IMG/VR virus record: IMGVR_UViG_3300026484_000095
Span: 45,820 to 109,819 of that record
Source of the DNA: a virus
Length of the DNA: 64,000 nucleotides
Strand: one strand, 5' to 3'
Part shown: positions 4,203-24,651 of the stretch, in pieces
How positions within the stretch are numbered: position 1 is the first letter of the stretch
Layout: each line of letters begins with the position of its first letter
Notes under the pieces: model-generated
The model's database searches: none
Seen by the model: only the letters and a program-made list of their open reading frames with translations
Told to the model about the DNA's origin: nothing
Program-made: the position numbers and the translations under genes

Positions 4203-4226
4203 TTATCCCTTAGAGAAGCTATTTTT

Positions 4227-4253: not shown

Positions 4254-4289
4254 TTCGTATTTGGGTTAATCCTATTAAGGAGGTAAAAT

Positions 4290-7856: not shown

Positions 7857-7867
7857 GTTAAAAAGTG

Positions 7868-7886
7868 GTATACTGTGAGAGTATAT
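7868..7886 (+). promoter_or_regulatory. TATAC...GTATAT dyad upstream of the SSB-like gene
   Basis: TATACT, a five-base spacer and AGTATA form an inverted repeat in the 63-bp gap, about 33 bases before the ATG at 7920. Similar dyads precede the genes at 42936 and 45992, so it may be a promoter or operator element. Confidence 0.35.
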
Positions 7887-7919
7887 TAAGTATTCTAAAA
7901 TTAAATCAAAGGAAAAGTT

Positions 7920-8801
7920 ATGGCAACTACAAGAAGAAGAGCCTCAAGTAAAAGTGCAGAGAGTAAAGCTCCAACTAAAAGAGTTAAAAAGACAGCAAAC
8001 AAAAAGGAAGCTCCAACTAAATCAAGAAGAGCCTCTAAGGTTGAAGATACAGAAGATGAAGATGATTACGAGAGTATCAGAGATGCAAAACCTGAGGGAG
8101 AGAAAGCTGAAACATTTAAGCTAGATGACAAAAAGCAGAAAAAGAGAATCGGCTTCCCACTGGTAACAAAAGCAGGTACTGTAGGTATGGTCAAAGTGCA
8201 TTATTTCAAAGCTAAGTTTAACACAACATTGGCAGATGGTAAATGGCACGCATTTCAAGCTCCAACAGACCCTGATTTATTGCAGATGTGTAAAGACCAC
8301 CCAAATCTCGATGAGAAAACAGAGAGAGCTACTATCGTTATCGTTTATGATACAGATAGTAAAGGCAAGGTTTATGGCAAAGGTGACGATATAGGTTATG
8401 AGCTTCTAGCTATGAAAATCAACAATCCAAAACTTATCGAGCTACAAGATATTGATGAAGATGATGATTTAACTCAGGTAGATGTGATGGTTAGATTGGA
8501 CGCTTCAAAAGATGTCAAGTTCCAAGATATGAGATTTAAAACAGCAGGTGACGCCCTTTGGCTTAATGATATGGATTCAGAGGAAATCCAAGAGGAGGCT
8601 AAGGCTCTAACTAAGAAGCTAAAAGATGTTATAGCTTTTAAATATGATGATGAAAAAATCGAGGCTCTTATCGGTGATGGTGATGTAGATGACGATGATT
8701 ATGACGATGATTATGATGATGATTATGATGACGATGAGATAGAAGATGATGAAGAGGAGGAAGAGAAACCTGCTCCAAAGAGAAGAGCTAGAAGAAGATA
8801 A
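7920..8801 (+). CDS. Probable single-stranded DNA-binding protein with acidic tail
   Basis: 293 residues in three parts: a basic, Lys/Arg/Ser-rich head (1-40), a central beta-rich region (about 75-245), and a strongly acidic tail with three tandem DDDY repeats ending in a basic RRARRR. The centre (VKVHYFKAKF, WHAFQAPTDPDLLQMCKDHP, IVIVYDTDSKG, GYELLAMKI) follows the layout of gp32-like phage SSBs but lacks the paired cysteines of their zinc site. An acidic tail is the usual partner-binding element of SSBs. Position between Pif1-like helicase, EndoVII and recA supports the call. The family assignment is an inference and needs a profile or structure comparison. Confidence 0.5.
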   Translation: MATTRRRASSKSAESKAPTKRVKKTANKKEAPTKSRRASKVEDTEDEDDYESIRDAKPEGEKAETFKLDDKKQKKRIGFPLVTKAGTVGMVKVHYFKAKFNTTLADGKWHAFQAPTDPDLLQMCKDHPNLDEKTERATIVIVYDTDSKGKVYGKGDDIGYELLAMKINNPKLIELQDIDEDDDLTQVDVMVRLDASKDVKFQDMRFKTAGDALWLNDMDSEEIQEEAKALTKKLKDVIAFKYDDEKIEALIGDGDVDDDDYDDDYDDDYDDDEIEDDEEEEEKPAPKRRARRR

Positions 8802-8809
8802 ACTCTTAA

Positions 8810-8850
8810 AGTGCTAATAGTTAAAACTCTATTAGCACTCTTCCTATTTC
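8810..8850 (+). terminator. Terminator after the SSB-like gene
   Basis: A perfect 11-bp stem, AGTGCTAATAG (8810-8820) with CTATTAGCACT (8829-8839), is followed by the pyrimidine-rich CTTCCTATTTCTC. It begins eight bases after the stop codon. Confidence 0.7.
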
Positions 8851-8851
8851 T

Positions 8852-8881
8852 CATAATATATAAATAAAGAGGTATATTATG
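8852..8881 (+). promoter_or_regulatory. Hairpin enclosing the RBS and start codon of endonuclease VII
   Basis: CATAATATA (8852-8860) is exactly complementary to TATATTATG (8873-8881), so the stem includes the ATG at 8879 and the loop holds AAAGAGG. Gene 49 of T4, the same enzyme, is known to be translationally controlled by a hairpin. Here the stem is AT-only and weak. Confidence 0.4.
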
Positions 8882-9478
8882 AGAAATGCGAAGAGAAGAA
8901 GACGGAAAAAGAAAGTATCTTTAATTCAGTTAGAACATAGAGATATAACTGAGTTCAGAGAAATAGTCCACGATAGTCAAGATAGGATTTGTCCTATATG
9001 TAATCTTGAAATAGATTATAAAGATACAACATTAGACCATCAGCACCCATTAAACAAAAGTGAGCCTATTGGTCATAATGGCTCAGGACTCGTGAGAGGA
9101 ACTATATGTCGTATCTGTAATTCAGCAGAGGGTAAGATTTGGAACAACTTTAAGAGGTCAGGTCTTATGAATAAGCAGATGGATAAGAACCATATAAAAG
9201 CTAGAGCTAAATGGTTGCGAAACCTAGCAGATTATTATGAGAGTGGAGTAATCAAGAATGAAGATGGCGAAGCATTTGTGCACCCAACAGAGAAACCTCC
9301 TATGGCTACAATGGGTAAGCAGTTATTTAACAAACTGAACAAATTGTATAAAGCTAAGTATCCTAACAGAAAGCCTTTGGAAGTGCCTAAGAGTATTGGT
9401 AAAAGAGGTAAGAATAAAGGTAAATGGAAGATAACTGCAAAGTGGGAAGCTCTTTTAGATGAGTTTCAATTAAGTTAA
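8879..9478 (+). CDS. Recombination endonuclease VII (gp49-like)
   Basis: Holliday-junction and branch-cleaving nuclease that clears DNA branches before packaging. The family signature is complete: C38-P-I-C41, LDHQH with D53-H54, LVRGTICRIC with C77 and C80, then N81 and the G-W spacing of the ββα-metal core. The four cysteines bind structural zinc, and the Asp-His pair is catalytic. At 199 residues it is slightly longer than T4 gp49, with a basic head and a C-terminal extension containing KPLEVPKSIGKRGKNKGK. It is followed by the recA locus. Confidence 0.9.
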   Translation: MRNAKRRRRKKKVSLIQLEHRDITEFREIVHDSQDRICPICNLEIDYKDTTLDHQHPLNKSEPIGHNGSGLVRGTICRICNSAEGKIWNNFKRSGLMNKQMDKNHIKARAKWLRNLADYYESGVIKNEDGEAFVHPTEKPPMATMGKQLFNKLNKLYKAKYPNRKPLEVPKSIGKRGKNKGKWKITAKWEALLDEFQLS

Positions 9479-9525
9479 TAAGTAAGTGCCACACTGCTGT
9501 ATATAGGGTATATAAGGAGCATAAA

Positions 9526-9897
9526 ATGAATTTAGGTAAATCACATTTAACACACTATAAAAAGATAAAGTTGAATAAGGATATTTCATTGAGATATTTC
9601 TTTACCTTTGAGGATAGACTTAACCTGAATGGTAAGTGGGTTATTAAATCCCACAGCACAAAAGAGTACGGTATTATAGATGAGAGAACTGCAAGACTTA
9701 TTGCCACAGCTCATAACAAGACCTTAGATGATTATAAAGAGATTATGGGTCGCTATGTAGCTAATATGTCAGGGACTGGTTCTGTATATAGAAAAGTGAT
9801 TATATCTAACAATGAGAAAAAAGATAAAGCTAAGTTTACTTATGAACCTAATGTAAAGGTTACAGAGATTGATAAATCACAAAAAACAAAGGAGTAA
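9526..9897 (+). CDS. Hypothetical protein just upstream of recA
   Basis: 123 residues, not recognised. It contains a mixed alpha/beta pattern (ISLRYFFTFEDRLNLNGKW, then DERTARLIATAHNKT) and a charged C terminus. The ATG follows AAGGAGC. It ends two bases before the start of the recA N-terminal ORF, so it is very likely in the same operon. Confidence 0.65.
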   Translation: MNLGKSHLTHYKKIKLNKDISLRYFFTFEDRLNLNGKWVIKSHSTKEYGIIDERTARLIATAHNKTLDDYKEIMGRYVANMSGTGSVYRKVIISNNEKKDKAKFTYEPNVKVTEIDKSQKTKE

Positions 9898-9899
9898 AA

Positions 9900-10181
9900 A
9901 TGGCATTTGATGAAAAGACCTTAAAGGCACTTAGCTCAAAGTATGCAAAAAAGAATGAAGATTTTATCTATAACCCTAACAGAGTTTTAGAGGGGGCTTC
10001 AACTGGTTCAGTTATTGCTGATACAGTTATAGGGCAAGAGGGTATGCTTTTAAAAGGCAGAATGACAGAGGTGTTTGGACCTGAGAGTTGTGTTACAGCA
10101 GATACAATGGTTGAGGTTAGAATTGATGGTGTGGAAAGACTTATCCCTATTATAGAATTACAAGGCTTATTAAATGGGTAA
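9900..10181 (+). CDS. recA: RecA N-terminal extein fused to a split-intein N fragment
   Basis: First half of a fractured RecA recombinase. Residues 1-63 end in GRMTEVFGPES, the first part of the RecA Walker A (GPESSGKTT). Residue 64 is Cys1 of an intein, CVTADTMVEVRIDG, which is intein block A. The ORF stops 30 residues later at TAA (10179-10181), before block B. The matching intein C fragment and the rest of RecA are at 11019-12521, with an endonuclease ORF between. Trans-splicing would rejoin GPES with SGKTT exactly. The ATG of the endonuclease overlaps the last codons, so the ORFs are translationally coupled. The 30-residue N fragment is much shorter than in canonical split inteins such as DnaE. 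Confidence 0.92.
   Translation: MAFDEKTLKALSSKYAKKNEDFIYNPNRVLEGASTGSVIADTVIGQEGMLLKGRMTEVFGPESCVTADTMVEVRIDGVERLIPIIELQGLLNG
10089..10178 (+). other. Split intein, N fragment (30 residues)
   Basis: Cys1 at 10089-10091 opens block A. The fragment holds only the first beta strands of the Hint fold. The TxxH of block B is on the C fragment, so the split lies between blocks A and B. Confidence 0.9.
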
Positions 10182-11022
10182 AAGACTTTCGGATTTAGAT
10201 ATTATAGACGAGTGTAGAAGCTTAGGTCTTAAAGATATAGTTATCTATAGAGAGGAGTATAAGCCTCCGAGAGTGAGTTATATATGTACTTGTGGAGCTA
10301 AAGTCCAAAACAAAAATTGGTATAAAATAAAACACGAAAATCAATTTTTGTGTAAGGCTTGTTCTGACGACATAAGAAGTCAGGCTCAAATTAAATACTC
10401 TAAAAAAGTGATAAAAGGTAGGTTAAGTGAAGTTTCTAATGATAAACCCATAAAGATAAATGAGGGTATAAAGTCTGTTAGCGAGATACATTGTGAGTCT
10501 TGCAGTACTGTATACTATATTAGAAATGAGGAAATCTTTGCTTCTTACTTTAAAGGTCATCCTGATTGTTCTTATAAGCTGAAAATTAAATCTAAAGGAG
10601 AGTACTTCATAAAGGAATTATTGGATTCTTATAATATTAATTACTTACACAATAAATCTTTTAAGTCTTTAGGAATAGATAGTTTATTGAGATTTGATTT
10701 TTACCTACCTAATTTCAATTTAATAATTGAGTTTGATGGTATTCAACACTTCTCAAAAAAAGAATTAAAGAGGGTCGGTTATAACATAAATTCTAGTAAA
10801 TTTACAAGTAGAAAAGATTTATTCAAAGACCAAAGGCTAAGGGATTTCACTAAAAATCATCTTTGTTTAGATAATGATATTAATATACTTAGAATCCCTG
10901 CTTGGCATTTAGGTAAATTAAAAGAGATTCTACTTCCTATATTCACAAGAGAAGATGTAATTGAGGGCTTATATTACACTGATGATAGTTTCTATAAAAA
11001 AGGTTCAAGGAGATTAATATGA
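10174..11022 (+). CDS. Vsr-like (EDxHD) homing endonuclease inside the recA locus
   Basis: 282 residues with two Cys-pair zinc-binding regions near the N terminus (CTCG...CKAC, and CESC...HPDC) followed by a PD-(D/E)xK/Vsr-like nuclease core: GEYFIKELL, LRFDFYLPNFNLIIEFDG, IQHF, then a downstream RD and INILRIP. The E-D-x-H-D arrangement matches the endonuclease family reported between the halves of fractured genes. It overlaps the upstream ORF by 8 bases and the downstream ORF by 4 (ATGA), so all three are read in sequence. Its expected role is to cut intein-free recA alleles and spread the cassette. Confidence 0.85.
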   Translation: MGKRLSDLDIIDECRSLGLKDIVIYREEYKPPRVSYICTCGAKVQNKNWYKIKHENQFLCKACSDDIRSQAQIKYSKKVIKGRLSEVSNDKPIKINEGIKSVSEIHCESCSTVYYIRNEEIFASYFKGHPDCSYKLKIKSKGEYFIKELLDSYNINYLHNKSFKSLGIDSLLRFDFYLPNFNLIIEFDGIQHFSKKELKRVGYNINSSKFTSRKDLFKDQRLRDFTKNHLCLDNDINILRIPAWHLGKLKEILLPIFTREDVIEGLYYTDDSFYKKGSRRLI

Positions 11023-11345
11023 AGATAGAAATAAACACACCTGATGGGTGGCAAGAGGTAAGAAACTTCCAAGATAAAGGATTTCAACATAGTATAAGAG
11101 TGGGTTTCTTCCGACCTGATAATCGTGAGATTATTTATGTTACCTGCTCTATTATGCACAGATTCCTATTATCAACTGGAGAGTGGATAGAGGCTGATTT
11201 ACTCACAGAAGGTCATTTTATCCAATCTAAATGGGGTAATCTAAAATTTATGGCAAGAACAGATATGGGAGAACAACCTGTATATGACATAGAGGTAAAG
11301 CACCCTAATCATAGATATTATACAAATGGTATTGTTTCTCACAAT
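11019..11345 (+). other. Split intein, C fragment (109 residues)
   Basis: Contains block B as VTCSIMHRF (T43 to H47 of the ORF), block F as PVYDIEVKHPNHRYYTNG and block G as IVSHN, with splice-site Asn109 followed by the +1 Ser110 of RecA. All catalytic positions needed for protein splicing are present. Confidence 0.92.
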
Positions 11346-12521
11346 TCGGGAAAAACAACAATATGTTATCAGTCGATAGCAAGTGCACTGCAAAAGGGTT
11401 GGGTCGGTTGTATGTTCGATAATGAGCAGACTTTTGATAGTGATTATGCTCGTGCTTTAGGTGTAGAGATAGGAGAGAATTTTCAAGTGTTCCAACCTGA
11501 TGATGCCGAAGAAGCAGAAGCTATATTCAATGAACTAGTCGGTATTGGTAAAGATGGTAAAACAAAAACACCTCTTCTCCCTGATATGGATTTTATAATT
11601 ATTGATAGTATCACAGCTTGGGCACCTCGTAAATTGATGGCTATTGAAAATTCAACTGGTGAAGGTCAAACAAAAGGATTGCACGCCGCTTATTGGACTA
11701 ATTTCAGTCGTAAGTTACAGATAGCTATTAAAAAGAGAAAGATTGCTTGTCTATGCACTAATCAGGTTCGTAACAAGTTGCAGATGGGTGGCTCGTTTCA
11801 AGCACAAGCTATGAAAGACACTGGTATCGGTGCAGGTTTCAGTCAAGATGCAGGGTGGACTACAACTGGTGGTAATGCTCTTAGATTTTATATGTCTGTG
11901 AGAACTCTAATGTATCAAGCTAAGAAGCTGAAAGAGACGAGAGTTATTAGAGGTGTAGAAACAGATGTAGACGAAGCACATTGGGTGGAGTTCAAAAATG
12001 TTAAAAACAAAGTATCAGCACCTTTTAGAAAAGCTAGATTGGTTCTTAGATATGGTGTAGGAACTGATGATATTCCTCCTATGATGGAGTATCTTAAATT
12101 GAATGGTATCATAACAAATGCAGGTGCTAACTTGATGTATAAGTCAAGTGACGGTAGTTGTGATGTTAAAGAGTTCGGAGCTAAGAAGTTCGATAAGGCT
12201 ATGAAAGACCCTACTGTTGTTAAAGATATGAGAAAACAATATATAGCATTGAAAAGAGAAGAAGACCCTTATGCAGATGAAGATGAGGACATAGCAGTAT
12301 TCTCTGACGATGAAGATGGAGTGGAGTTCGACGAAGAAGAGGTTGATTTTGATGAAGTAGAAACTGATAATGAAATCGAAGATGAGGAAGAGGACAGTGG
12401 CTCTATAAAAGATTGGTCGTTAGCTGATTTAAAACAACTTGCAAAAGATGAAAAAATCAAAATCGTTGGTAAAGTAACTAAAGAGAAGTTGCTTAAAAAA
12501 TTGTTAAAAATATATGATTAG
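11019..12521 (+). CDS. recA: Intein C fragment plus RecA C-terminal extein
   Basis: The second half of RecA. Residues 1-109 are the intein C part. From Ser110 the RecA sequence resumes with SGKTTICYQSIASAL, then FDNEQTFDSDYARALGVE, Walker B IIIDSITAWAPR, the loop region KDTGIGAGFSQDAGW and the CTNQVR motif. The core is followed by a long acidic linker and a final 36-residue SAP/Rho-N-like module (DWSLADLKQLAKDEKIKI, residues about 465-500), the same module as in the protein at 4290. After splicing, the recombinase would be about 454 residues, promoting strand exchange for recombination-dependent replication and repair. The start is fixed by the ATGA overlap with the endonuclease. Confidence 0.92.
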   Translation: MKIEINTPDGWQEVRNFQDKGFQHSIRVGFFRPDNREIIYVTCSIMHRFLLSTGEWIEADLLTEGHFIQSKWGNLKFMARTDMGEQPVYDIEVKHPNHRYYTNGIVSHNSGKTTICYQSIASALQKGWVGCMFDNEQTFDSDYARALGVEIGENFQVFQPDDAEEAEAIFNELVGIGKDGKTKTPLLPDMDFIIIDSITAWAPRKLMAIENSTGEGQTKGLHAAYWTNFSRKLQIAIKKRKIACLCTNQVRNKLQMGGSFQAQAMKDTGIGAGFSQDAGWTTTGGNALRFYMSVRTLMYQAKKLKETRVIRGVETDVDEAHWVEFKNVKNKVSAPFRKARLVLRYGVGTDDIPPMMEYLKLNGIITNAGANLMYKSSDGSCDVKEFGAKKFDKAMKDPTVVKDMRKQYIALKREEDPYADEDEDIAVFSDDEDGVEFDEEEVDFDEVETDNEIEDEEEDSGSIKDWSLADLKQLAKDEKIKIVGKVTKEKLLKKLLKIYD

Positions 12522-13924: not shown

Positions 13925-15130
13925 ATGTATACTTTAAGAGCTAAGAATTTCCAAAGATATAAAAATGTTCAGATGGGTATAGATAATTTTACTGTTTTGG
14001 AAGGACCTTCATCATTGGGCAAATCAGCTATTGTTAGAGCTATTGAAGTAGCAACTAAAAATAGTTGGTCGGCTAGTTATGTAACACAAGGTCAGAAATC
14101 TACTTCTATTCAATTAACATCAGATGACTTCGATATTCAAGTAGCTAAGGGTAACAAGAACTCTTTTATCATTAAAACAGATAAAGGTTTAAAAGAATAC
14201 TCTAAGGCAGGTAAAGATGTTCCATCTGAAATTTTAGACTTAGGCTTCTCTCCTTTGGTAACTGGTTCAGATAATAAAATTGATTTAATGCTTTCAGGTC
14301 AATATGACCCTCTGTTTATGGTTAGCTATTCAGATATGTTGAATACCAACATATTAAATAGTGTTTTTGGTATATCAAAACTGGAAAAAGCTAATAGCTT
14401 AGTTATTAAAGATATTAGTGTAGCAAAGAAAGAACTTCAAAGAAATGTCAAGGATATTGAATATAAGAACAAAGAGCTTAACCGTAACAAAGAGTTACAA
14501 GAGCAGTTTTTAGTTATCAAAGATAAATACAGTAATGCAGAAGATATAGGGAGCTATCACGGGCTTAAAAATGATTATATCAAGGTAAAAGGTAGTCTAA
14601 GTGATTTAAAGAGCTTACAAGCTAATTATGATAAGTTACGAGAGCTAAGAGATAGTATTCATCTTATTAGTGATTTTATAGATGTATGCAGAGATATTGA
14701 TAATTTGAAACCTAAATTAGATAAAGCAACTAATAAAGTTAAAGCTATTGAAATTTTAGATGGTTTATACTCCATCTTAGATTACAATGATGTAGACCTA
14801 GATATTATCAGAGTAGGTATGGATTTAGATAGTTTAAAAAGTAAAACTGCACATTATAAACAGTCTGATGATTTACTACAAGATATATATCTTGTTAGCG
14901 ATTTTGTAGCTATAAATGAAGATATATATAAGATGACCACAAGCATATCGTTGAAAAAGGCAACTCTTGATTTAGCATTATTACAAGATTATCTATTGAA
15001 ATCAGATTTATTAAAAGTAAAAAGAAATGCTATAACTGGCATATATGGTAGTGTTAAGCAGATAGAGAGTGAAATATCCAATATAGGATACTGTCCTTGC
15101 TGTAATCAAAAAATAGGAGTTCATAAATGA
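13925..15130 (+). CDS. SbcC/Rad50-like ATPase, N-terminal half ending at the zinc hook
   Basis: 401 residues. Walker A is GPSSLGKSA at 27-35 after the typical opening LRAKNFQRYKNV. Residues about 150-380 are coiled coil, and the protein ends 12 residues after the hook CPCC (C390, C393). In SbcC, Rad50 and T4 gp46 the chain turns at this hook and returns to a C-terminal lobe with the ABC signature, Walker B and His switch. That part is absent here and is encoded separately at 24043. A complex of the two with SbcD (18701) would process DNA ends. The stop TGA overlaps the next ATG. Confidence 0.82.
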   Translation: MYTLRAKNFQRYKNVQMGIDNFTVLEGPSSLGKSAIVRAIEVATKNSWSASYVTQGQKSTSIQLTSDDFDIQVAKGNKNSFIIKTDKGLKEYSKAGKDVPSEILDLGFSPLVTGSDNKIDLMLSGQYDPLFMVSYSDMLNTNILNSVFGISKLEKANSLVIKDISVAKKELQRNVKDIEYKNKELNRNKELQEQFLVIKDKYSNAEDIGSYHGLKNDYIKVKGSLSDLKSLQANYDKLRELRDSIHLISDFIDVCRDIDNLKPKLDKATNKVKAIEILDGLYSILDYNDVDLDIIRVGMDLDSLKSKTAHYKQSDDLLQDIYLVSDFVAINEDIYKMTTSISLKKATLDLALLQDYLLKSDLLKVKRNAITGIYGSVKQIESEISNIGYCPCCNQKIGVHK

Positions 15131-15621
15131 GTGAGAATACTAAGGTCGCTATTGAAGAAGTGAAAAAGCTACTTAGAAAGCAAGAGAAAATTCAAAAATG
15201 GCTGAAAAAGAATGGTAAACCTAAAAATCAAAACATTCAACATAAGATAGCTTTTGCTTATGCTGTTTTAGATTTTCTATACCATAATGAGTGCAGAACA
15301 CACAAAGCATTGCTACCTAACAGTATGTTCTTTAAAGACGGAAGTGTCGTAGCAAAAGGTATTGAAGATGTACTAAATAGAGATGTTCAATCTTTCGTGA
15401 AAAAGGTTAGAAGTGTAGCATTTAGAAACCCTGCACATTGGTTTCTTTTTAGAGTAGCACCTTCAAGAAGAGGTCAAGTTCTAGGGTTGGAGTCAAAGTA
15501 TGAAACCATCTCTAAGTTAGTAGGGAGACTATCTAAATCGGAGCTAGAGGATTTAGAAGACCTGATTCAAAATCGTTATGCAGTAGAGCTAACAGAAGAG
15601 GAGAAAAACTGTGAGAGTTGA
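15127..15621 (+). CDS. Hypothetical protein
   Basis: 164 residues, mostly helical and basic in the first third, not recognised. It overlaps the SbcC-like gene by 4 bases and the ThyX-like gene by 11, so it is translated in the same chain. Confidence 0.65.
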   Translation: MSENTKVAIEEVKKLLRKQEKIQKWLKKNGKPKNQNIQHKIAFAYAVLDFLYHNECRTHKALLPNSMFFKDGSVVAKGIEDVLNRDVQSFVKKVRSVAFRNPAHWFLFRVAPSRRGQVLGLESKYETISKLVGRLSKSELEDLEDLIQNRYAVELTEEEKNCES

Positions 15622-16672
15622 TATTTATAAAGATGGTATAGGTTATGTGACTGATGAGGTGTCTGAAATCCCAACTTATCTAGCAAATGCTAGTGAGGGA
15701 AATAGACAAAAGTTTGTTACAGACCTCGCCGCAGTAAGTCGTGGTAAGAGTTCAAGTAACAACCCTGCTCTGAGATACAAGAAGCTATTGAAAGAAGCCG
15801 CACCTAAGTTCAAAGGGCTAGATGGTTACAAAATTGCTATGGAGTGTATTAACGATAAAGTTTCAATGGGTAAAAGCCCAAGTAGACCTTTGGAGTTCTT
15901 ACCTATCATAGTCCATATATTCCTTGATGCAGGTGCAGTAACTATGTGGAAAACTAATTATAGTGATTCAGATGACCCTATCTTTGAGTTCAAAGATTTA
16001 GCAGAATTTAACAATAGCTTAGGTAATCACTCTTATTTAGAGAAAATCCCTGATGAAGATAACTTATATAGATGTTATACAAATATGAGAGCTATGTTAA
16101 ATGCAGGTGTTCCTTATGATAGTGTACCTTATGCGAGAGAGAGCGATTTACCTTTTTATAAAGAGTTCAAAGCACTTAAAGCAAGAGTTCCTATGTTTGC
16201 ATTTAATCATCTAATCACTCATACAGCATTATCAAAAGAAGCTCAAAGTGATAGAGTAACTAAAGATGGTGAGTATTGGTTACCTTCTGATTTAAGAAAA
16301 AGAGCCTATGAATATAATGATGTAGAGGATACCTCTTATAGAGAAGTCTATACTGAATGGACTGAAGTATCAGCTAGTATTTTATCTTTTGAAGATAGAA
16401 ATAAATTAGTTAGTAAATTACTGAGTTTATCTCAAAATGTAGTACAAGCTTATTTGAAAGCTCTTGGTTATGAGCAAGAGATATACCAAAGAGCTATGTT
16501 GGAGTTCAGATATAAAGAAGTTGTTATGACTGGTTGGTATAACAATCCAAAAACATTTAGACACTTTATGATTGAAAGAGAAGCATATCCTACTTTACAC
16601 GAGAGTTGGGTGCAAAATGAAACAAGATTGTTAGCAAACGGTGTTAGAGAAGTGTTAGAGGTTTCTTTTTAA
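15611..16672 (+). CDS. Divergent ThyX-like protein (possible flavin thymidylate synthase)
   Basis: 353 residues from a GTG inside the end of the previous gene. The middle has FNHLITHTALSKEAQSDR followed by GEYWLP, which lines up with the ThyX signature RHRTxSxNExSxRY. The C-terminal part has LKALGYEQEIYQRAMLEF, then PKTFRHFMIER and SWVQNETRLLANGVREVL, as in the ThyX FAD-binding helices. The two Arg of the RHR motif are replaced (ITHT), so activity is uncertain. Synthesis of dTMP would fit the dCMP deaminase, dUTPase, thymidylate kinase and RNR genes in this window. The call rests on motif pattern only. Confidence 0.45.
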   Translation: MRVDIYKDGIGYVTDEVSEIPTYLANASEGNRQKFVTDLAAVSRGKSSSNNPALRYKKLLKEAAPKFKGLDGYKIAMECINDKVSMGKSPSRPLEFLPIIVHIFLDAGAVTMWKTNYSDSDDPIFEFKDLAEFNNSLGNHSYLEKIPDEDNLYRCYTNMRAMLNAGVPYDSVPYARESDLPFYKEFKALKARVPMFAFNHLITHTALSKEAQSDRVTKDGEYWLPSDLRKRAYEYNDVEDTSYREVYTEWTEVSASILSFEDRNKLVSKLLSLSQNVVQAYLKALGYEQEIYQRAMLEFRYKEVVMTGWYNNPKTFRHFMIEREAYPTLHESWVQNETRLLANGVREVLEVSF

Positions 16673-16693
16673 AACATATTGAGGTGTGTTAAT

Positions 16694-16882
16694 ATGAATG
16701 AGAAACTGTATAAGGATTATGTGAGGGTGTGTATAGAGAAAAATCTAACATACCCTCCTCTACAGGACTGGTTAAAAAGAATGGAGCATAAAGAGGTTAA
16801 AAAAGTGCGATATAAATCTGTTGAGACTTCTTTAGAGCAAGAGTTAGATGTAGCAAGGGAGTTACATAACTTATATAGATGA
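16694..16882 (+). CDS. Small protein, paralogue of the N terminus of its neighbour
   Basis: 62 residues from the ATG at 16694 behind GAGGTGTG. Its sequence (KDYVRVCIEKNLTYPPLQDW) matches residues 8-28 of the next protein (LDYLRICEEKGFTPTPEQEW), pointing to a local duplication or a part-gene. An inverted repeat CATATT/AATATG (16675-16696) surrounds the ribosome site. Confidence 0.6.
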   Translation: MNEKLYKDYVRVCIEKNLTYPPLQDWLKRMEHKEVKKVRYKSVETSLEQELDVARELHNLYR

Positions 16883-16892
16883 GGATTTTGAT

Positions 16893-18188
16893 ATGGAAGA
16901 TAAGTTACACAAACTGTGGTTAGATTATTTAAGAATTTGTGAGGAAAAAGGTTTCACTCCCACTCCTGAACAAGAGTGGAAAGAGAGTAACAGACATAGC
17001 TTAAAAGGTGTCAAGGTTGCTAAAACAAATAAAGATGATTTGCTAGAAGAACCATTAGAAGATATAGAACAAGATGAGCCTTTAGTTATTTCTGAGTCTA
17101 AACCTACTGGTAGTAGAGTAGATTTATACATAGCTAAAGTAAATGAAATACCTGAGCATAAGTTGATGGAAGTTGCTAAGTATCTTAATGTTACTGTTCA
17201 GTATTTTAGAGATAATGCTATATCTATCTTTGGAACTAATTCTAGTATAAGAAATGCTATCATTAAGGCTTATCACTCTTGTGATAATATCTTTTGTGCT
17301 AAAAACATCAATGAGAGAATACAGCTAAGATTGAGTAACCAACATTTAAAAGCTGATAAGGTAGTAGAGCATAAACCTGAACAGCGAGAAGTAGAGGTTA
17401 GAGAAGATAGTAAACCGTTACCAAAAGAAGATGTTAAAAGAGAGGTCAAAGCTGATATTGTAGATGAGTATTACTCTATACAAGAAGCTATAGATAAGCT
17501 ACAAATTCAGAGAGCTACTTTATTGTTATATATCCGAAGAGAAGATATAAAAGGTTCTGTTAAGGACGATAAAGTTCTTAAAGCTGATATTGACAAACGA
17601 TATAATGATTTAGTAGCCAAAGGTAAGCTAGGTAAATTAGGTCGTAAGAAATTTACTAAACAATCTTCTGATAGTGTTCCAACTAAAAAAACAAAAGAGC
17701 AGATAGAAGAGCCAAAAAAAGTAGAGGTTAGAGAAGAACCAACAGTGCAGAGAACTATTTTAGATAGTGAAACAGTAGAACTGGTTTATAAGTCTGTTCC
17801 TTTTTCAGTAGCACTTAAAGTGTTAGGTGTAACAATGTTCACCTTAGTAGCTCAAATTGAAAAAGGTATAATCAGAGCTGACTATGATTTAGGTTTAGTT
17901 TCTTATCAAGATATATTGAGTAAAGCCAAATATAATCTAACTAGAAAGAATTGTAAAGTTAATCCTGACTTTCAAAAGATGCTTGATGGAGCTAGTATAT
18001 CTCATTTAGAAGATAAAAAATATATAGTTAAAGATGTCCATACTGTTGTTGAGGAAGTCCATACTGAGAAAGTAGTGTATAAAGATAAGGTCGTAGTTGA
18101 TAAGAAGTTTACTAAGGCTTATAAAAAGTTAAGTAAGAGAAAACAGAGATATTTCTACCATAAGATAATGGCTGAAGTATTAAAGTGA
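16893..18188 (+). CDS. Putative DNA-binding protein with excisionase-like HTH segments
   Basis: 431 residues. After a 50-residue head shared with the preceding small protein, it contains two segments resembling MerR/excisionase-type helix-turn-helix domains: YYSIQEAIDKLQIQRATLLL plus YIRREDIKGS around residue 195, and KSVPFSVALKVLGVTMFTLV plus QIEKGIIRAD around residue 307. The rest is charged linker with a KVVYKDKVVV beta-rich part and a basic tail. A transcription or DNA-organising role is possible, but no family can be assigned. It is followed by a strong AAAGGAGGT site for the next gene. Confidence 0.55.
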   Translation: MEDKLHKLWLDYLRICEEKGFTPTPEQEWKESNRHSLKGVKVAKTNKDDLLEEPLEDIEQDEPLVISESKPTGSRVDLYIAKVNEIPEHKLMEVAKYLNVTVQYFRDNAISIFGTNSSIRNAIIKAYHSCDNIFCAKNINERIQLRLSNQHLKADKVVEHKPEQREVEVREDSKPLPKEDVKREVKADIVDEYYSIQEAIDKLQIQRATLLLYIRREDIKGSVKDDKVLKADIDKRYNDLVAKGKLGKLGRKKFTKQSSDSVPTKKTKEQIEEPKKVEVREEPTVQRTILDSETVELVYKSVPFSVALKVLGVTMFTLVAQIEKGIIRADYDLGLVSYQDILSKAKYNLTRKNCKVNPDFQKMLDGASISHLEDKKYIVKDVHTVVEEVHTEKVVYKDKVVVDKKFTKAYKKLSKRKQRYFYHKIMAEVLK

Positions 18189-18201
18189 AAGGAGGTCAAA
18201 A

Positions 18202-18384
18202 ATGCAACGAGAACAACCTGATACCTCATTCTTAACAGCTTGGGGTCAAGTTACAATGTCTAAAGAAGATAGTAAATTAGCTCAAGCGAACTTCACTAAA
18301 ACATTAGAAAAATGTACTCCAAAGTTCATTGCTAAAATGAAAAGCCATAATATGCAATGCACTAAAATTAAAGTAAAAAATTAA
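18202..18384 (+). CDS. Small hypothetical protein
   Basis: 60 residues with an excellent ribosome site (AAAGGAGGT, five bases before ATG). Not recognised; ends in a basic stretch with two Cys. Confidence 0.55.
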   Translation: MQREQPDTSFLTAWGQVTMSKEDSKLAQANFTKTLEKCTPKFIAKMKSHNMQCTKIKVKN

Positions 18385-18429
18385 TCCTCTTACTCTTATA
18401 TAGCTATATGATATTAAAAAGGTATAGCT

Positions 18430-18699
18430 ATGAGAGAATGGATTAGAAATCTACTATTTATAAATAAAACTTCAACAAATATTATCTTTATGGGTCAGTT
18501 TATCAAAGGTGGTCTTACAAAGAACTCTGATAAATTTAAAATAGATGAAATCAACCGTCTTAAAGATTTGATAAAAGATTGTTCATCTAACTTCAATGTA
18601 ATCCATAAAGTTTATAACTACATACAAAATAAATCTTATTATAAGGGCTGTCCTGTGTCTATCGTTGATGGTATAGTAATAGTGCAAAAGGCTGTCTAA
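18430..18699 (+). CDS. Small hypothetical protein
   Basis: 89 residues, not recognised. Its start codon lies at the edge of a palindromic ATAGCTAT repeat (18400-18407 and 18424-18431), with the ribosome site in the loop. Its stop is separated by one base from the SbcD start. Confidence 0.55.
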   Translation: MREWIRNLLFINKTSTNIIFMGQFIKGGLTKNSDKFKIDEINRLKDLIKDCSSNFNVIHKVYNYIQNKSYYKGCPVSIVDGIVIVQKAV

Positions 18700-18700
18700 T

Positions 18701-19717
18701 ATGGCAATTCGTAAAAAGGGATTGAAAGCAGACCTTAATGTAGGTGCTATATTTTTAAAAGACACTCATTTTAGATATGGCTTTAATGCTCCTAGTGGTA
18801 GAAAAGAAACATATTTTGAAGAGATAGACGATAAGGTAGATGATGTTATAGTTATCGGCAAAAAACAAAAATGTAAGACCTTAATTATATTGGGAGATGT
18901 ATTTGATATAAAACAACCTAGCCTATGGAGTTCTAAGGCTGTAAGAAAGACTCATAAAGTTTTAGCAAGGTTGAAATCTTGGTATGATAATATCTATACC
19001 ATAGCAGGTAATCACGATTTAATAGGTTCAGCAAGGAGTAATAAGAAAGATAGTATGTACTCTTATTTTGTTGAAGCAGGTCTGTTAAATGATATACACG
19101 GTAAATATATCAATCTTAGTGATAATGTTTATCTGACGGGATTAGATTTTAATAGTGATATTAAAGCTCTTAAAAGAGAGTTGAAACGAGTAAGTGCTGA
19201 AGCCAAGAAGTTAAAAATGAGGAACCCAAAAGCCAAGGTAATATGTGTATTTCACGAACATCTGATAGCACCTGAAGAGAGAGACAAAGTTTGGGGAGAC
19301 TCTTTTAATTATCGTTATGCAGTAGCAAATTATAAATATATAGATGTATTTTGTGCAGGTCATTACCATAAAGGGTATGCTACACAAATATACAGAGGTA
19401 AGATATTTATTAACCCATTTAATTTCAGTAGGTTAGCAAGAAGTCATTATACATTAGATGGTAGCCATATCCCTACTGCTGTTTATCTTAATATAAAAAC
19501 ATTTAAATATAAAGATATTCCTATTAAACATCTTCCATTTAACGATAGCATTAACATTGAGGAAATGCTACAAGAGGTAAGAGAGACTTTGGATATATCA
19601 AATTTTATAGATAATCTTGAGGATATAAACACTGATAGTGAGGTTAGCATTGATAATGTTTCAGACGAAGTTAAAGAAAAGATAAGCTATTACCTAGATA
19701 TAGCAAATAATAAATAA
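18701..19717 (+). CDS. SbcD/Mre11-like nuclease (gp47-like)
   Basis: 338-residue calcineurin-type metallo-phosphoesterase, partner of SbcC/Rad50 in double-strand end processing. Metal-ligand motifs appear in order: D21-T-H23 (usually DxH), LGDVFD, AGNHD, VFHEH and CAGHYHKG. The last part is a short cap and acidic tail. All five phosphodiesterase motifs are present, so the enzyme should be active. In T4-like phages gp46 and gp47 genes are neighbours; here the N-terminal SbcC half is 4 kb upstream and the C-terminal half 4 kb downstream. Confidence 0.9.
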   Translation: MAIRKKGLKADLNVGAIFLKDTHFRYGFNAPSGRKETYFEEIDDKVDDVIVIGKKQKCKTLIILGDVFDIKQPSLWSSKAVRKTHKVLARLKSWYDNIYTIAGNHDLIGSARSNKKDSMYSYFVEAGLLNDIHGKYINLSDNVYLTGLDFNSDIKALKRELKRVSAEAKKLKMRNPKAKVICVFHEHLIAPEERDKVWGDSFNYRYAVANYKYIDVFCAGHYHKGYATQIYRGKIFINPFNFSRLARSHYTLDGSHIPTAVYLNIKTFKYKDIPIKHLPFNDSINIEEMLQEVRETLDISNFIDNLEDINTDSEVSIDNVSDEVKEKISYYLDIANNK

Positions 19718-19727
19718 AGGTGTAATA

Positions 19728-20633
19728 ATGCGACAAACAATAAAAAGAAAAGTAGAACCAAAGTTATATGTATCTTATAGCTCTTTTAAAACTTTTAAGA
19801 ACTGTCCTGAGATGTATAATCAGCTTTTTATATTACCGAGAGAAGATACAGAGGATAAAGTTCCTTTCGACTCTTATGATGCAAGTGTAGGGACTGCCAT
19901 ACAGGCTATATTTGAGCATATAATCAATAAGAACATTGAATACACTGATACAGATAAGTTTCATAAGAAGATACAAGATGATATATTCACTCTATCAGAT
20001 ATGCTTATCCCTATTGATAGATATTCTTTTGAGAACTCAAAGGTTTATGTTGATGATAATCATATAGTTACAAAGTTTAGTAAATTTGCAGTAGATACCT
20101 CTGAGAAGTCTTTAAAAGCTGTAAGGCAAAGATTTATATTAGATGTGCTTAAAATGTATCACAAACCTCTTAAAAAGATGTCTAGCTTATATGATTTATC
20201 TAAAATGAGTTCAGAAATTAAAATGAAAAAAGAGTATAAAGATTTTACCCTTATAGGTACATTAGATTTCGTTTACTTCAATGAAAAAGGCTCTATTGAT
20301 ATAATAGATGGTAAAAAGCAGTATAACCCTGCTTGGATAGATGATGAGCAATTAAGAATATATACTTTGTTAGCTAAACATCATTATAAATTAAAGGTTA
20401 GAAAGACTGGCTTTTGGGATTGGAGTTCAAACAAATTGATAAACAGACCTTTTACAGAAAAAGAATTATTAAACACTTTAGAATCTCTTTTAGACTTTAA
20501 AGTTAAATTAGATAAAGCTAAGGTTACCAATAAATTTCGCAGAAAAGTGGGCTTCCATTGTAGATGGTGTCCTATTCAAGAGCAATGTCCTAATAACAAG
20601 AAAGAGACTGTTGATGGTCTTGTATCTTTTTAA
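19728..20633 (+). CDS. RecB/Cas4-like PD-(D/E)xK exonuclease with Fe-S cysteines
   Basis: 301 residues. The nuclease core is GTLDFVYF...IDIIDGKKQ (D, then D-G-K) followed by the QLRIYT helix. Cys26 near the N terminus (FKNCPEMYN) and a C-terminal C278-x2-C281-x5-C287 cluster form the four-cysteine iron-sulfur arrangement of Cas4, AddB and related phage nucleases. It would resect DNA ends to make single strands for RecA. It follows the SbcD gene by 10 bases, which fits a recombination operon. Confidence 0.82.
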   Translation: MRQTIKRKVEPKLYVSYSSFKTFKNCPEMYNQLFILPREDTEDKVPFDSYDASVGTAIQAIFEHIINKNIEYTDTDKFHKKIQDDIFTLSDMLIPIDRYSFENSKVYVDDNHIVTKFSKFAVDTSEKSLKAVRQRFILDVLKMYHKPLKKMSSLYDLSKMSSEIKMKKEYKDFTLIGTLDFVYFNEKGSIDIIDGKKQYNPAWIDDEQLRIYTLLAKHHYKLKVRKTGFWDWSSNKLINRPFTEKELLNTLESLLDFKVKLDKAKVTNKFRRKVGFHCRWCPIQEQCPNNKKETVDGLVSF

Positions 20634-20885
20634 ATGGATTTAATTATGACTATTAGATATGAGGGAAGTCTGAGATACACTCTGTGCTTCCTATCAGGAT
20701 TAGAGGTAGAAGTATCTGAGCAAGACTTGGATGATTTTAGAGATGATATAATCAGTAATGAGATAGAGAATTATGCTTCTTTACTAGATTTATATGAGGA
20801 TACGAAAATTAAGTTAGCCAAAGTTAGAAAGGCTAATAGGAGACTTCGTAGATTATGTAAGTCTAAAAAGAAGAAAGGAAGTTAA
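20634..20885 (+). CDS. Small hypothetical protein
   Basis: 83 residues from the ATG touching the previous stop (20634); an ATG at 20646 is an equally possible start. Acidic front half and basic C terminus (RRLRRLCKSKKKKGS). Not recognised. Confidence 0.55.
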   Translation: MDLIMTIRYEGSLRYTLCFLSGLEVEVSEQDLDDFRDDIISNEIENYASLLDLYEDTKIKLAKVRKANRRLRRLCKSKKKKGS

Positions 20886-20886
20886 T

Positions 20887-21192
20887 ATGCCACCTATTAG
20901 AAAAAAAGTCAAGAGAAAAGCACCCTCTAGTCAAGCTACAAAAGATGTAAAAATTGATGAAGAAGATATAATCTCAAAACTGGAAAAGCTCTCCAAAAAG
21001 AAAGACTCTCTCGTTAAAGAGATTTCTAAGATGGAAGTAGAGTATGAGAACCTACAAGCTGAGTATGACGAGATTGGTGCTGTGATGGAAGAGAAGTTCG
21101 GAACAACTGATTTAGACAAGCTCCAAAAGATTAAAGAGAAAATGCTAAGGGACGCTGATAAACTTTTAAAGGAGGTAGAAGATGAAAGCTAA
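20887..21192 (+). CDS. Small coiled-coil protein
   Basis: 101 residues, basic head (PPIRKKVKRKAP) then a long Glu/Lys/Leu coiled coil. Function unknown; it overlaps the next small gene by 11 bases. Confidence 0.6.
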   Translation: MPPIRKKVKRKAPSSQATKDVKIDEEDIISKLEKLSKKKDSLVKEISKMEVEYENLQAEYDEIGAVMEEKFGTTDLDKLQKIKEKMLRDADKLLKEVEDES

Positions 21193-21325
21193 GGAACTAA
21201 TCCAAGCATTACAAGAGCTAGATGAAGATACTGAAATTGAAGTAATGGTTGATGGCGAAATAGTAGGAATAGTGGTCGGTTGTTTAGATGACCCTGATGG
21301 ACCTTATATTGAAGTAGGAGAGTAG
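21182..21325 (+). CDS. Very small acidic protein
   Basis: 47 residues (MKAKELIQALQELDEDTEIE...), overlapping the previous gene and preceded by AAAGGAGG, the best ribosome site nearby. It resembles short phage proteins with a helix followed by a beta hairpin (EVMVDGEIVGIVVG). Function unknown. Confidence 0.6.
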   Translation: MKAKELIQALQELDEDTEIEVMVDGEIVGIVVGCLDDPDGPYIEVGE

Positions 21326-21329
21326 TTTT

Positions 21330-21485
21330 ATGGCAAAATATCTAAAAGAACACGGAGAAAGAGTGTCTTTTCAAGGTGACGAAGTAAGAGTTGATACTAA
21401 GGGTCGTCTATACATCTTTGTAGATGGTAAAAAGACTTATGTTAAAAAAGTAAATGGAATTATACATTTTAAAGGAGAGTCATAA
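21330..21485 (+). CDS. Very small beta-rich protein
   Basis: 51 residues from the ATG four bases after the previous stop; its TAA overlaps the next ATG by one base. Predicted to be a beta sheet (ERVSFQGDEVRVD, RLYIFVDGKKTYV). Function unknown; the tight packing supports that it is real. Confidence 0.5.
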   Translation: MAKYLKEHGERVSFQGDEVRVDTKGRLYIFVDGKKTYVKKVNGIIHFKGES

Positions 21486-22696
21486 TGGCAAACAATGAAC
21501 CAAGAAGAAGAAAAAGAAGAGTACCTAAATCAAGTGCTACAAAAACAAGTCAAGCAGGAACAGATTTAAGAGAAACACCTGCTAATGTAAATACAGATGG
21601 TGCAGAAGCAACTCATACAGTTTCAGTTAATAAAGATTATGGAGATAGTGCGATATTCACTCTTTCTAAAAATCAGTTAGCTCAAATTGTAAAAGCAATG
21701 AAACCTGTTGTAAGAGAAGATAAGTTCAGATTTGAGATTGGAACTGATGGTGATATTACTGTTTCAGTAGATGAGCAAGGCTTTATCTTATGTATCAAAT
21801 TGGGAACAACTGATGTTCAGGCTGATAAACCTTTCGTGTTCTATATGGATAAGTCAGTTCTCAGTCGTATCACTTCTGTTGTTGCAGATGAGATTAAATT
21901 CAATATGACAAAAGAGACTATGTCTATTGAGGTTGGTGGAACTGATATTAATCTAGGTCTATCTATTGAAGATGTAGAACCTGATATTTCATATTCAGCA
22001 GGTGTAACGGAAACAAAGTCAAGTGAGTGGTTACTGGATATTTTAAATAGAATATCTGTATCAAAAACAGCAAATGCACCATTAGCAAGTGTAATGTATT
22101 TTGGTGAAAACATCAAATACGGTTCTAAGAAAAATACATCTCTTATTAAAGATGGTCTATCTAAGACTAAAGCAGGGCTAGTACCTGAGTTCGTGCTGTA
22201 TCTGAAAAATATTGCTTCACTAGGCGATAATGTAGATTTCATTCTTGATGAAAAAGGTGGCAACTTTGTAGTTAAAGCTGATAATGTTTTCTATAAGACA
22301 AAACTGGTTAAAAACAAATTCCCCGTAGATATTAAGAAAGACCTCATTGATAATATGGAAGTTGAAGCAAACGGGGAGTTCAGCTCAAGTCCAATCCTTA
22401 TAAGTTTAGATAAACTGTCAATCCCTCTTATCGGTGCAGATAATGCCGAGTTAAATATGACTTTTAGTGAAGATGACCAAGAGGTTGAAGTCTTTGTTAA
22501 TAGTATAGGAAATCAAGCAAGTAAAGATACTTGGACGGCAGGTGTATTAGAGGGCGATGCAAGTGGTGTCCTTGATTTATACCACCTGATGAGTTCGTTA
22601 AGTGTAATGGACGATGATATTAAAATATCTATGTATAAATCTTTCGTATTGTTAGAGGACTCTAAACAGTATCTTCTGTTAAGTAAATATCTCTAA
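21485..22696 (+). CDS. Probable sliding clamp-like processivity factor
   Basis: 403 residues with a disordered basic head (1-50) and then repeating beta-alpha-beta units such as IFTLSKNQLAQIVKAMKP, FVFYMDKSVLSRITSV and IVKADNV-type strands, ending in SLSVMDDDIKISMYKSFVLL and YLLLSKYL. This pattern, and the ending in a hydrophobic strand, resembles DnaN/gp45 clamps. A clamp is expected because a DnaX-like loader is encoded at 44678. The identification is by overall pattern, not by a diagnostic motif. Confidence 0.45.
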   Translation: MANNEPRRRKRRVPKSSATKTSQAGTDLRETPANVNTDGAEATHTVSVNKDYGDSAIFTLSKNQLAQIVKAMKPVVREDKFRFEIGTDGDITVSVDEQGFILCIKLGTTDVQADKPFVFYMDKSVLSRITSVVADEIKFNMTKETMSIEVGGTDINLGLSIEDVEPDISYSAGVTETKSSEWLLDILNRISVSKTANAPLASVMYFGENIKYGSKKNTSLIKDGLSKTKAGLVPEFVLYLKNIASLGDNVDFILDEKGGNFVVKADNVFYKTKLVKNKFPVDIKKDLIDNMEVEANGEFSSSPILISLDKLSIPLIGADNAELNMTFSEDDQEVEVFVNSIGNQASKDTWTAGVLEGDASGVLDLYHLMSSLSVMDDDIKISMYKSFVLLEDSKQYLLLSKYL

Positions 22697-22704
22697 CCTC
22701 CTTA

Positions 22705-22730
22705 TAAGAGTGGGATTACCCCTGCTCTTA
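22705..22730 (+). terminator. Hairpin after the clamp-like gene
   Basis: TAAGAG...GGG pairs with CCC...CTCTTA about ten bases after the stop codon; only a short AT-rich tail follows. A second small stem, CTAAAAG/CTTTTAG, lies at 22748-22767. Confidence 0.4.
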
Positions 22731-22788
22731 GTTAATAATTTCCCCTACTAAAAGGTATATCTTTTAGATTAGATTAAAAAGGTATATT

Positions 22789-23229
22789 ATGAATAATCCA
22801 ATAATTCCACAAACTGCAAGTGTTAATTCTCCATCTATTGATAATCAAAGAGCTTTATCGTTATCTATGAACCATAGTGTCAATATAGCCAAGGACAATG
22901 ATACAACTGTGGTCTTTGTTTCAAATTTTGATATGCTTAATAGAATAAAAGAGCTAGATGGTGAACTCAACAAATACAGAGGTCAAGTGTTCGGTAAAGA
23001 CTGGGTAAAAGAAAAGCCCTCTAAGTATCAAACAGATGAGCTAACCTTACAATTAAAAGCTTTACAATCTTTTGAAATACCCGTAGTATTGAAAGCTATA
23101 CCAAATCCTGAAAAAGATATTGTTGAAGCTCTTATTGTACCCGAAGATGGCTATAAAATATCTTATTATGAAGACGCCTCTCGTCTTGGTATGGTTTATC
23201 AATTTAAAAGGATAGACAATGCAAGTTAA
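22789..23229 (+). CDS. Hypothetical protein
   Basis: 146 residues, not recognised. Polar N terminus and a predicted alpha/beta C-terminal half (VVLKAIPNPEKDIVEALIVP). First gene after a hairpin-containing 92-bp gap, so probably the start of a new transcript. Confidence 0.6.
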   Translation: MNNPIIPQTASVNSPSIDNQRALSLSMNHSVNIAKDNDTTVVFVSNFDMLNRIKELDGELNKYRGQVFGKDWVKEKPSKYQTDELTLQLKALQSFEIPVVLKAIPNPEKDIVEALIVPEDGYKISYYEDASRLGMVYQFKRIDNAS

Positions 23230-23452
23230 TATATTAAGAAAGATATTATCTGCTGTTTGTCCTATTATCTTTGTAGATAAGTTAAAAGGGGGATGTTTAA
23301 TACGAAAGAGGTTATTACATAAAGGCTACCAAGTGTCAAAGATTGATTATTTAGATAATGGGAAAACAATAATGGTAACTTGGATAGATGATTGTCCTAA
23401 TTGGGATTCGGTGTTAGAAACTATTAATATAGGAGGTAAATATGAAGTATGA
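23219..23452 (+). CDS. Small hypothetical protein
   Basis: 77 residues, overlapping its neighbours by 11 bases on each side, with AAAGGATA upstream. Not recognised. Confidence 0.5.
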   Translation: MQVNILRKILSAVCPIIFVDKLKGGCLIRKRLLHKGYQVSKIDYLDNGKTIMVTWIDDCPNWDSVLETINIGGKYEV

Positions 23453-24041
23453 TAAAGTGATGATAGAGACTGCTCGTATATGGGCTGAACAAAGTTATTG
23501 TAAAAGACGAAAAGTGGGTGCTGTTGTAGGTAAAGAGGGTCGTATCTTAGCAACTGGTTATAATGGAACTATATCAGGTTTAAAAAATGAGTGCGAAGAT
23601 GTTTTTTACAAGTGTCCAAACTGTGGTAATAGTGCCGATGAAAGACAACATTTAATAGCCAACCCTATTATAGACCATTATAAAATCCCTTTCGGTCAAA
23701 AGGTATCTTTAAATTGTAGTAAATGTAATGAACCTCTAATAGTAGGGCAAGGCAACTATCATTACAGTATTGATGTTATTGAGGATAAAATCGTAAAGGA
23801 ATCTATAACAAATGATTTTACAGTCCACGCAGAGCAGAATGTTATATCTTATTGTGCCAAACAAGGGATACCTCTAAATGGTGCTACAATGTATATAACT
23901 ACAAGTCCTTGTAAGCAATGTGCTAAACTGATAGCTCAAAGTGGTATCACAAGAGTTGCTTATATTGAGAAGTATAAGGACACATCAGGTTTGGATTTTT
24001 TAGGTGAGTTGGGAATAGAGACTAAACAAATAAAGGTTTGA
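23442..24041 (+). CDS. dCMP deaminase with an inserted zinc-ribbon
   Basis: Converts dCMP to dUMP, the substrate for thymidylate synthesis. The catalytic zinc motif is VHAEQN with the later TSPCKQCAKL. The N terminus (IWAEQSYCKRRKVGAVVGK) is the usual one. Between them, about residues 50-100, is an insertion with CPNCGN and CSKCNE, a second zinc ribbon as found in several large-phage and ComEB-type enzymes. Length is 199 residues. It starts behind AGGAGGT. Confidence 0.9.
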   Translation: MKYDKVMIETARIWAEQSYCKRRKVGAVVGKEGRILATGYNGTISGLKNECEDVFYKCPNCGNSADERQHLIANPIIDHYKIPFGQKVSLNCSKCNEPLIVGQGNYHYSIDVIEDKIVKESITNDFTVHAEQNVISYCAKQGIPLNGATMYITTSPCKQCAKLIAQSGITRVAYIEKYKDTSGLDFLGELGIETKQIKV

Positions 24042-24042
24042 T

Positions 24043-24651
24043 ATGAGTTCAGAATATGTTAATAAGCAGTTGGATATGCTCACTGCAAAACAATCGGTAT
24101 TAAAAGATGATATTGTAAGGCTAGAAGATGAGAATAAGTCCTTAACTAATGATATTGTTATATTAGAACAAGTCAATACTTTCTTCTCTTCACAAGTAGA
24201 ACAGAAGATAAGTTCCATTAAGAGTAAAATAGAGACCTTAGTTAATTCAGGGTTGGAGCATATCTTCGGTGATGATATAAAACTGGAAATAACAAGCTCT
24301 ATTAAGTATTCTAAGACTACATTCTCTCTTAGGATAAATAACAATGGTGTTATAGGGTTAGGTAAGACACACGGTGGTGGTGTGTTGTCAGTAGTTGCAT
24401 TTATATTAAAAGTAGTCATAACTCTGCTTACAGATAAAAGAAAGTTTTTAATATTTGATGAGAGCTTATCAATGGTATCAGTTCATTATCAACCCAAAGT
24501 TTCATCATTTATAAGGCAATTATGTGATGATTTAGGCTTTACAATTTTGCTTATATCTCATCAACCTATTTTAGGAGAGAAAGCAAAACATATCTACCAA
24601 GTAGGTAAAAAAGGTTCTTACACTTCCTTAAAGGAAATTAGAAATGATTGA
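24043..24651 (+). CDS. SbcC/Rad50-like ATPase, C-terminal half
   Basis: 202 residues. It begins with a coiled coil (about 1-70), followed by the ABC signature region LGKTHGGGVLSVVAFI, Walker B KFLIFDESLS and the His switch ILLISHQPIL. There is no Walker A. This is the part missing from the 13925 protein, which has Walker A and the zinc hook. Together they make a complete Rad50-type ATPase. The coiled coil here is much shorter than in the N half, so the pairing may be asymmetric. A stand-alone SMC-like fragment with another partner is possible. Confidence 0.78.
   Translation: MSSEYVNKQLDMLTAKQSVLKDDIVRLEDENKSLTNDIVILEQVNTFFSSQVEQKISSIKSKIETLVNSGLEHIFGDDIKLEITSSIKYSKTTFSLRINNNGVIGLGKTHGGGVLSVVAFILKVVITLLTDKRKFLIFDESLSMVSVHYQPKVSSFIRQLCDDLGFTILLISHQPILGEKAKHIYQVGKKGSYTSLKEIRND

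Follow-up and report, generated by a model that had tools for sequence, protein, structure and literature searches.

Can the ATPase of SbcCD (Mre11-Rad50), a core DNA-break machine, be built from separate chains that are broken at the zinc hook? This question was raised by a 64,000-nucleotide stretch of viral DNA (IMG/VR record IMGVR_UViG_3300026484_000095, positions 45,820 to 109,819; here called the window), in which an initial annotation had proposed an SbcC/Rad50-like ATPase divided at the hook into two distant genes. We put at roughly 85% the probability that the window encodes a split SbcCD nuclease, whose Rad50/SbcC-type ATPase is made up of at least two chains (the N half and the C half) and probably of three, the third being the coiled-coil protein M.

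Two SbcC-like halves and an SbcD-like gene in the window

The N half (401 aa; 13925..15130, plus strand) comprises an N-lobe with Walker A and Q-loop, an ascending coil and a C-terminal zinc-hook CxxC. In its Walker A motif GPSSLGKS (aa 27-34; 14003..14026, plus strand), the residues G27, S29, G32 and K33 are invariant among 44 relatives. The same holds for Gln126 (14300..14302, plus strand), whose position suggests that it serves as the Q-loop residue. The hook motif CPCC (aa 390-393; 15092..15103, plus strand) lies 8 residues before the stop, the C-terminus reading CPCC-NQKIGVHK. The C half (202 aa; 24043..24651, plus strand) consists of a descending coil of approximately 60 aa and a C-lobe with signature, Walker B, D-loop and His-switch; Walker A is absent. 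In the alignment of 22 relatives, G111 of the signature-position GGG (aa 111-113; 24373..24381, plus strand) is invariant and G112 and G113 are nearly so. Asp139 and Glu140 of the Walker B motif FLIFDE (24457..24462 for Asp-Glu, plus strand) and His173 of the His-switch (24559..24561, plus strand) are likewise invariant; the D-loop Asp is not conserved in the window C half. Matches to phrog_16465 (N half, 3.9e-10) and phrog_15167 (C half, 4.8e-19) were detected, and no NCBIfam SbcC/Rad50 family exceeded its cutoff with the window N and C halves or with bacterial N, M and C.

The two halves are 8.9 kb apart on the same strand, and between them lies a gene for an SbcD/Mre11-like metallophosphoesterase (18701..19717, plus strand; Pfam Metallophos, 1.5e-9; SbcD-like phrog_100, 5.5e-5) with the motifs DTH, GDVFD, GNHD and GHYH. 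A phmmer search with this protein against PDB sequences gave no match. Thus, the features ascribed to the three genes in the initial annotation (Walker A, coil and terminal CPCC in the first; coil, signature, Walker B and His-switch without Walker A in the last; SbcD in between) were all recovered. We also checked whether a C lobe lies beside another N lobe: the 109.8-kb virus record contains a single N match and a single C match, and no second lobe of either kind. Directly 3' of the SbcD-like gene, we observed a gene for a PD-(D/E)XK nuclease (19728-20633; Pfam, 1e-11).

The head fold, Walker A and B, Q-loop, His-switch, coil, CxxC hook and SbcD partner are shared with canonical SbcC/Rad50. 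However, the canonical protein is a single uninterrupted chain that carries the hook midway, whereas here N ends just past the hook, C is encoded by a separate gene, and the signature is GGG with no conserved Ser. Separate N- and C-lobe chains that form one head are known from the engineered two-chain Rad50 catalytic domain (PDB 1f2t, 1f2u and 1ii8), and the matches of our family profiles list the A and B chains of these entries. The engineered protein is a laboratory head construct with little coil, while the split described here is natural and retains the hook. Phage-encoded SbcCD is found in T4 (gp46/gp47) and SPN3US; in the latter, a long distance separates sbcC from sbcD, but SbcC is a single chain with both lobes (PMC5105663).

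Recurrence of the split in phages and Bacillota

Scanning viral contigs with the N alignment yielded 49 loci. Separate N and C genes were found, for example, in Tunturi_5, Bacillus phage vB_BboS-125, Microbacterium phage Magritte, Microcystis phage Mvi-JY20 and the megaphage LR745208. The CxxC motif is located no more than 45 residues from the end in 239 of 243 distinct N halves (median, 11 residues beyond the motif). The four exceptions are a fused protein (L039), an ordinary single-chain protein (L010) and two proteins in which the motif is absent (L006 and L024). Exactly one separate C half was present in 49 of the 55 viral records with an N half, and the six N-bearing records without C are contigs of 7 to 64 kb. 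All 12 records checked have one N half each; where two rows were obtained, they correspond to two stretches of one frame.

C halves were scanned by clade in viral contigs and separately in bacterial genomes; a six-member C alignment was too divergent for scanning. In a reverse test, we started from 183 distinct viral C halves (including those from the N scan) and 79 bacterial ones. An N half was detected within the same locus of approximately 20 kb for 148 and 70 of them, respectively, and the hook was at the end of the N half in 217 of the 218 paired loci. The viral shortfall is largely due to the A7 group, with N in 17 of 49 loci; in several records of this group, N is more distant. Furthermore, the N and C distance matrices were strongly correlated (r = 0.90 for 226 pairs and 0.92 for the viral pairs only; permutation maximum, 0.13). 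Two candidates were discarded: the match of a single-protein scan with the window C half (L002) proved on inspection to be a chance match, and gp043 of Achromobacter phage JWF is an ordinary single-chain SbcC. The recurrence of these complementary N and C pieces across hundreds of loci shows that the split is not due to chance.

The gap between N and C ranges from 26 bp to 93 kb. Both genes are on the same strand in all 43 viral-contig pairs, and on opposite strands in Tunturi_5. We conclude that the break extends beyond this phage: it is common to phages of several hosts and to a chromosomal operon of Bacillota, and the wide spacing in the window and the compact operon are the two ends of one range.

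In the bacterial operon, the order recA-sbcD-N-M-C was found in Peptoniphilus, Tissierella, Thermoactinomyces and Alkalicoccobacillus loci, with one short open reading frame (ORF) between recA and sbcD in Thermoactinomyces. The Tissierella map shows an RNase Y gene (rny) 3' of C (Pfam), and an ORF that resembles it in size and N-terminus, as judged by eye, follows C in Thermoactinomyces, Alkalicoccobacillus and locus L287. Thus, recA-sbcD-N-M-C-rny is the order in most mapped bacterial loci. At L347, a Trp-repressor-like gene is located 3' of C instead, and L291 and L274 show a phage-like setting with sbcD downstream of C.

Of 119 Bacillota genomes surveyed, 23 harbor a split C (including the fusion L358 in genome G113). 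Canonical-type SbcC was found in 1 of these 23, versus 47 of the 96 other genomes (Fisher test, 3.4e-5, with related genomes treated as independent). It was called where a long ORF had a moderately scoring PF13558 match; matches above 60 bits in proteins of approximately 1100 to 1440 aa were excluded as not SbcC, because TIGR00618 had no match to them in five genomes. A check of 13 genomes with TIGR00618 bore out this sorting rule. The TIGR00618 matches in a further 20 split-bearing genomes were all short and partial, none of them full length. The split set apparently stands in for canonical SbcC in many Bacillota.

Natural fusions support the view that the pieces belong together. L039 encodes SbcD, N, hook and M in a single 771-aa ORF followed by C, and SbcD-N fusions are present at L247, L264, L267 and L269. 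A compact fusion of SbcD, N-lobe and C-lobe was detected in a Bacillota genome (L358; 702 aa; 2152-4260, minus strand); it has no coil, hook or M. The L247 fusion (6612-10648 of a 218,948-bp contig) is followed downstream by a separate C gene, and this contig is probably Bacillus phage 0305phi8-36. SbcD/SbcC fusion proteins, in which SbcD is likewise joined to parts of SbcC, were described for this phage and for Mimivirus (R555), and the phage protein was noted to lack one of the P-loop NTPase segments of SbcC (PMC3175470). If the assignment of L247 is right, its separate downstream C gene accounts for the missing segment.

Predicted composite head and the M piece

Profiles of both families point to Rad50. 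The C-family profile matched Rad50 C-lobe chains (7.3e-18), the N-family profile matched Rad50 chains (1.8e-17), and its hook-end region (positions 296-363) matched the Rad50 chain 6zff (4.5e-5). In an AlphaFold2 (AF2) model of the window N half, the best VIA match was P. furiosus Rad50 (Z 12.1); Rad50 N-lobes gave Z values of approximately 12, and SMC and RecF heads scored equally. The initial annotation had suggested predicting the complex of the two chains. Such a prediction was carried out in AF2 in another form, as the in-frame read-through N-M-C chain of the bacterial relative L296 (alignment A15, with three in-frame loci), and it yielded a Rad50-like composite head. The best VIA match was the P. 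furiosus Rad50 head (Z 25.1; root mean square deviation, 3.4 over 289 residues; model range, 1-792), with SMC heads less than 1 Z unit away, and Foldseek ranked Rad50 first (1.2e-20). N and C are therefore both predicted to contribute to one Rad50-like head; because the pieces were joined artificially in the model, the composite head is only a prediction.

The difference in coil length noted in the initial annotation, approximately 230 residues in N versus 60 in C, is real and family-wide. In Rad50 profile coordinates, the bacterial N covers positions 2-453 and the bacterial C positions 658-869. Compared to canonical SbcC/Rad50, approximately 200 positions of descending coil (454-657) are thus absent from N plus C, of which M could offer approximately 80. 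By eye, we noticed repeats of approximately 40 aa in the coil of the Tunturi_5 N half (L004, 7989-9446), which may bear on the coil-length asymmetry.

M is a two-helix coil of approximately 80 aa, and in most relatives its gene is located just upstream of C. With a model whose training set partly consisted of C-adjacent M genes, 99 of the 148 viral paired loci and 69 of the 70 bacterial ones had an M match at this position. In 57 of 73 viral loci, the best match of a model built from 72 bacterial M sequences only adjoined C or N, compared to the 3.7% of small ORFs expected there by position. In the window, this model ranked the ORF 20887..21192 (plus strand; 101-aa coiled coil) first of 179 ORFs (E value, 2.4e-6; next, 0.036), and a model from all non-window M sequences detected it with an E value of 1.2e-3. 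This ORF is likely, but not securely, the M gene of the window, and it is the weakest of our assignments there. Taken together, the data support that M belongs to the split-SbcC set and that it goes some way toward explaining the missing descending coil; M is nevertheless the least certain part of the three-chain reading.

Alternative explanations and implications

Upstream of the N half, the window contains a RecA gene that appears to be fractured (9900-12521), a location that recalls the bacterial order recA-sbcD-N-M-C. The N-terminal part of RecA (9900..10181, plus strand; Pfam RecA positions 26-64) runs into an apparent N-intein start (FGPES-CVTADTMVEV), and an apparent C-intein ending in SHN precedes the rest of RecA, which begins with SGKTT (11019..12521, plus strand; Pfam RecA, 6.5e-30). 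The ORF 10174-11022 intervenes between the two parts, and an Endonuclease VII-like gene is located nearby (8879-9478; Pfam, 4.7e-11). In Bacillus phage vB_BboS-125, a gene with an AP2 domain lies between N and C (L005, 10978-11550) and is possibly a trace of the opening of the gene.

Several observations weigh against a split SbcCD in the window. Neither window half exceeded the Pfam cutoff, both being divergent, and the signature lacks the Ser of LSGGE, with His110 in its place; a Ser before GGG is found in some clades (L036 and L042). The window M is a weak match and is not adjacent to C. The folded N-M-C model is an artificially joined chain from a bacterium with glycine at the stop codons, and it has a mean predicted local distance difference test score (pLDDT) of 75 and a predicted template modeling score (pTM) of 0.50, its confidence being low midway along the coil. 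The comparison with canonical SbcC draws on related genomes, which are not independent, and on Pfam matches sorted by size and score. Finally, M could be a linked coiled-coil gene, for example a regulator, rather than a coil strand, with N and C forming the ATPase as proposed. M profiles do match many coiled coils, and M was undetected in part of the viral loci. We nevertheless consider a nonstructural M unlikely, given its position just upstream of C, the SbcD-N-hook-M fusion of L039 and the placement of the top matches of the bacteria-only model.

The other explanations fare worse. N might be a fragment of a RecF/PtuA-like single-lobe ATPase and C an unrelated fragment of the ABC type that works with a partner of its own, so that the two would belong to different proteins; the weak similarities of the window N half to PtuA and LmuB and of the C half to mad3 and ECF ATPases and the wide spacing could suggest this. 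Yet neither piece by itself carries more than half of the ATP site, and the one-to-one co-occurrence, the tight N-M-C operons, the correlated distances, the natural SbcD-N-C fusion and the predicted composite Rad50 head make this improbable. Similarly improbable is a role in counter-defense, in which the phage halves would dock on host subunits and poison the host SbcCD or a Rad50-like defense without a nuclease of their own. Phages are known to inhibit host end-processing nucleases, but this phage has its own SbcD, and the same set forms a chromosomal operon beside recA in Bacillota. We give even less credence to decay, the remnant of an intact gene broken by a mobile element or a frameshift. 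Homing-type genes do occur nearby, both in this phage and, as the AP2-domain gene, in vB_BboS-125. However, divergent phages and Bacillota alike have kept the catalytic motifs of both pieces, each piece has its own start and stop, the hook is terminal in nearly all N halves, and the operon is maintained across several Bacillota genera. It is just as hard to credit that a split intein rejoins the products into one chain, as seems to happen with RecA of the same phage: N stops 8 residues past CPCC, C begins directly with coil, and no intein block was visible by eye at either end (no intein profile was run). Thus, an ATPase broken at the zinc hook into complementary genes with an SbcD partner, the core claim of the initial annotation, is supported by co-occurrence, the terminal hook, fusions and the predicted head.

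How the pieces of a split SbcCD would assemble, pair, cleave DNA and employ M, we infer as follows. N and C would build one ABC-ATPase head, and two such heads would sandwich two ATP molecules. The CxxC motifs of two N chains may pair as a hook, while M would most likely take the place of some of the descending-coil strand missing from C. The paired heads would dock on SbcD, and the ATP-gated SbcD nuclease could process DNA ends or hairpins for RecA-type recombination and replication, similarly to T4 gp46/gp47.

According to our best reading, the system is a split variant of the known SbcCD machine and is apparently undescribed; a search of open-access papers turned up no account of SbcC or Rad50 in split form. 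We see about even odds that it constitutes a distinct, old Mre11-Rad50 lineage with an ATPase permanently divided into N, M and C, a hook on a free C-terminus and a discontinuous arm. In such a lineage, the C chain could leave or enter, providing at the head or arm a gate for DNA that has no counterpart in single-chain Rad50, and the machine would serve phage recombination and replace canonical SbcC in many Bacillota. The natural break at the hook makes it directly testable whether the long SbcCD/Mre11-Rad50 arm must be a continuous closed loop. Moreover, the split set provides a candidate SbcC for those Bacillota whose genomes yielded no canonical one, and a function can be proposed for phrog_16465 and phrog_15167, which carry generic annotations only, and for a new family of small proteins.
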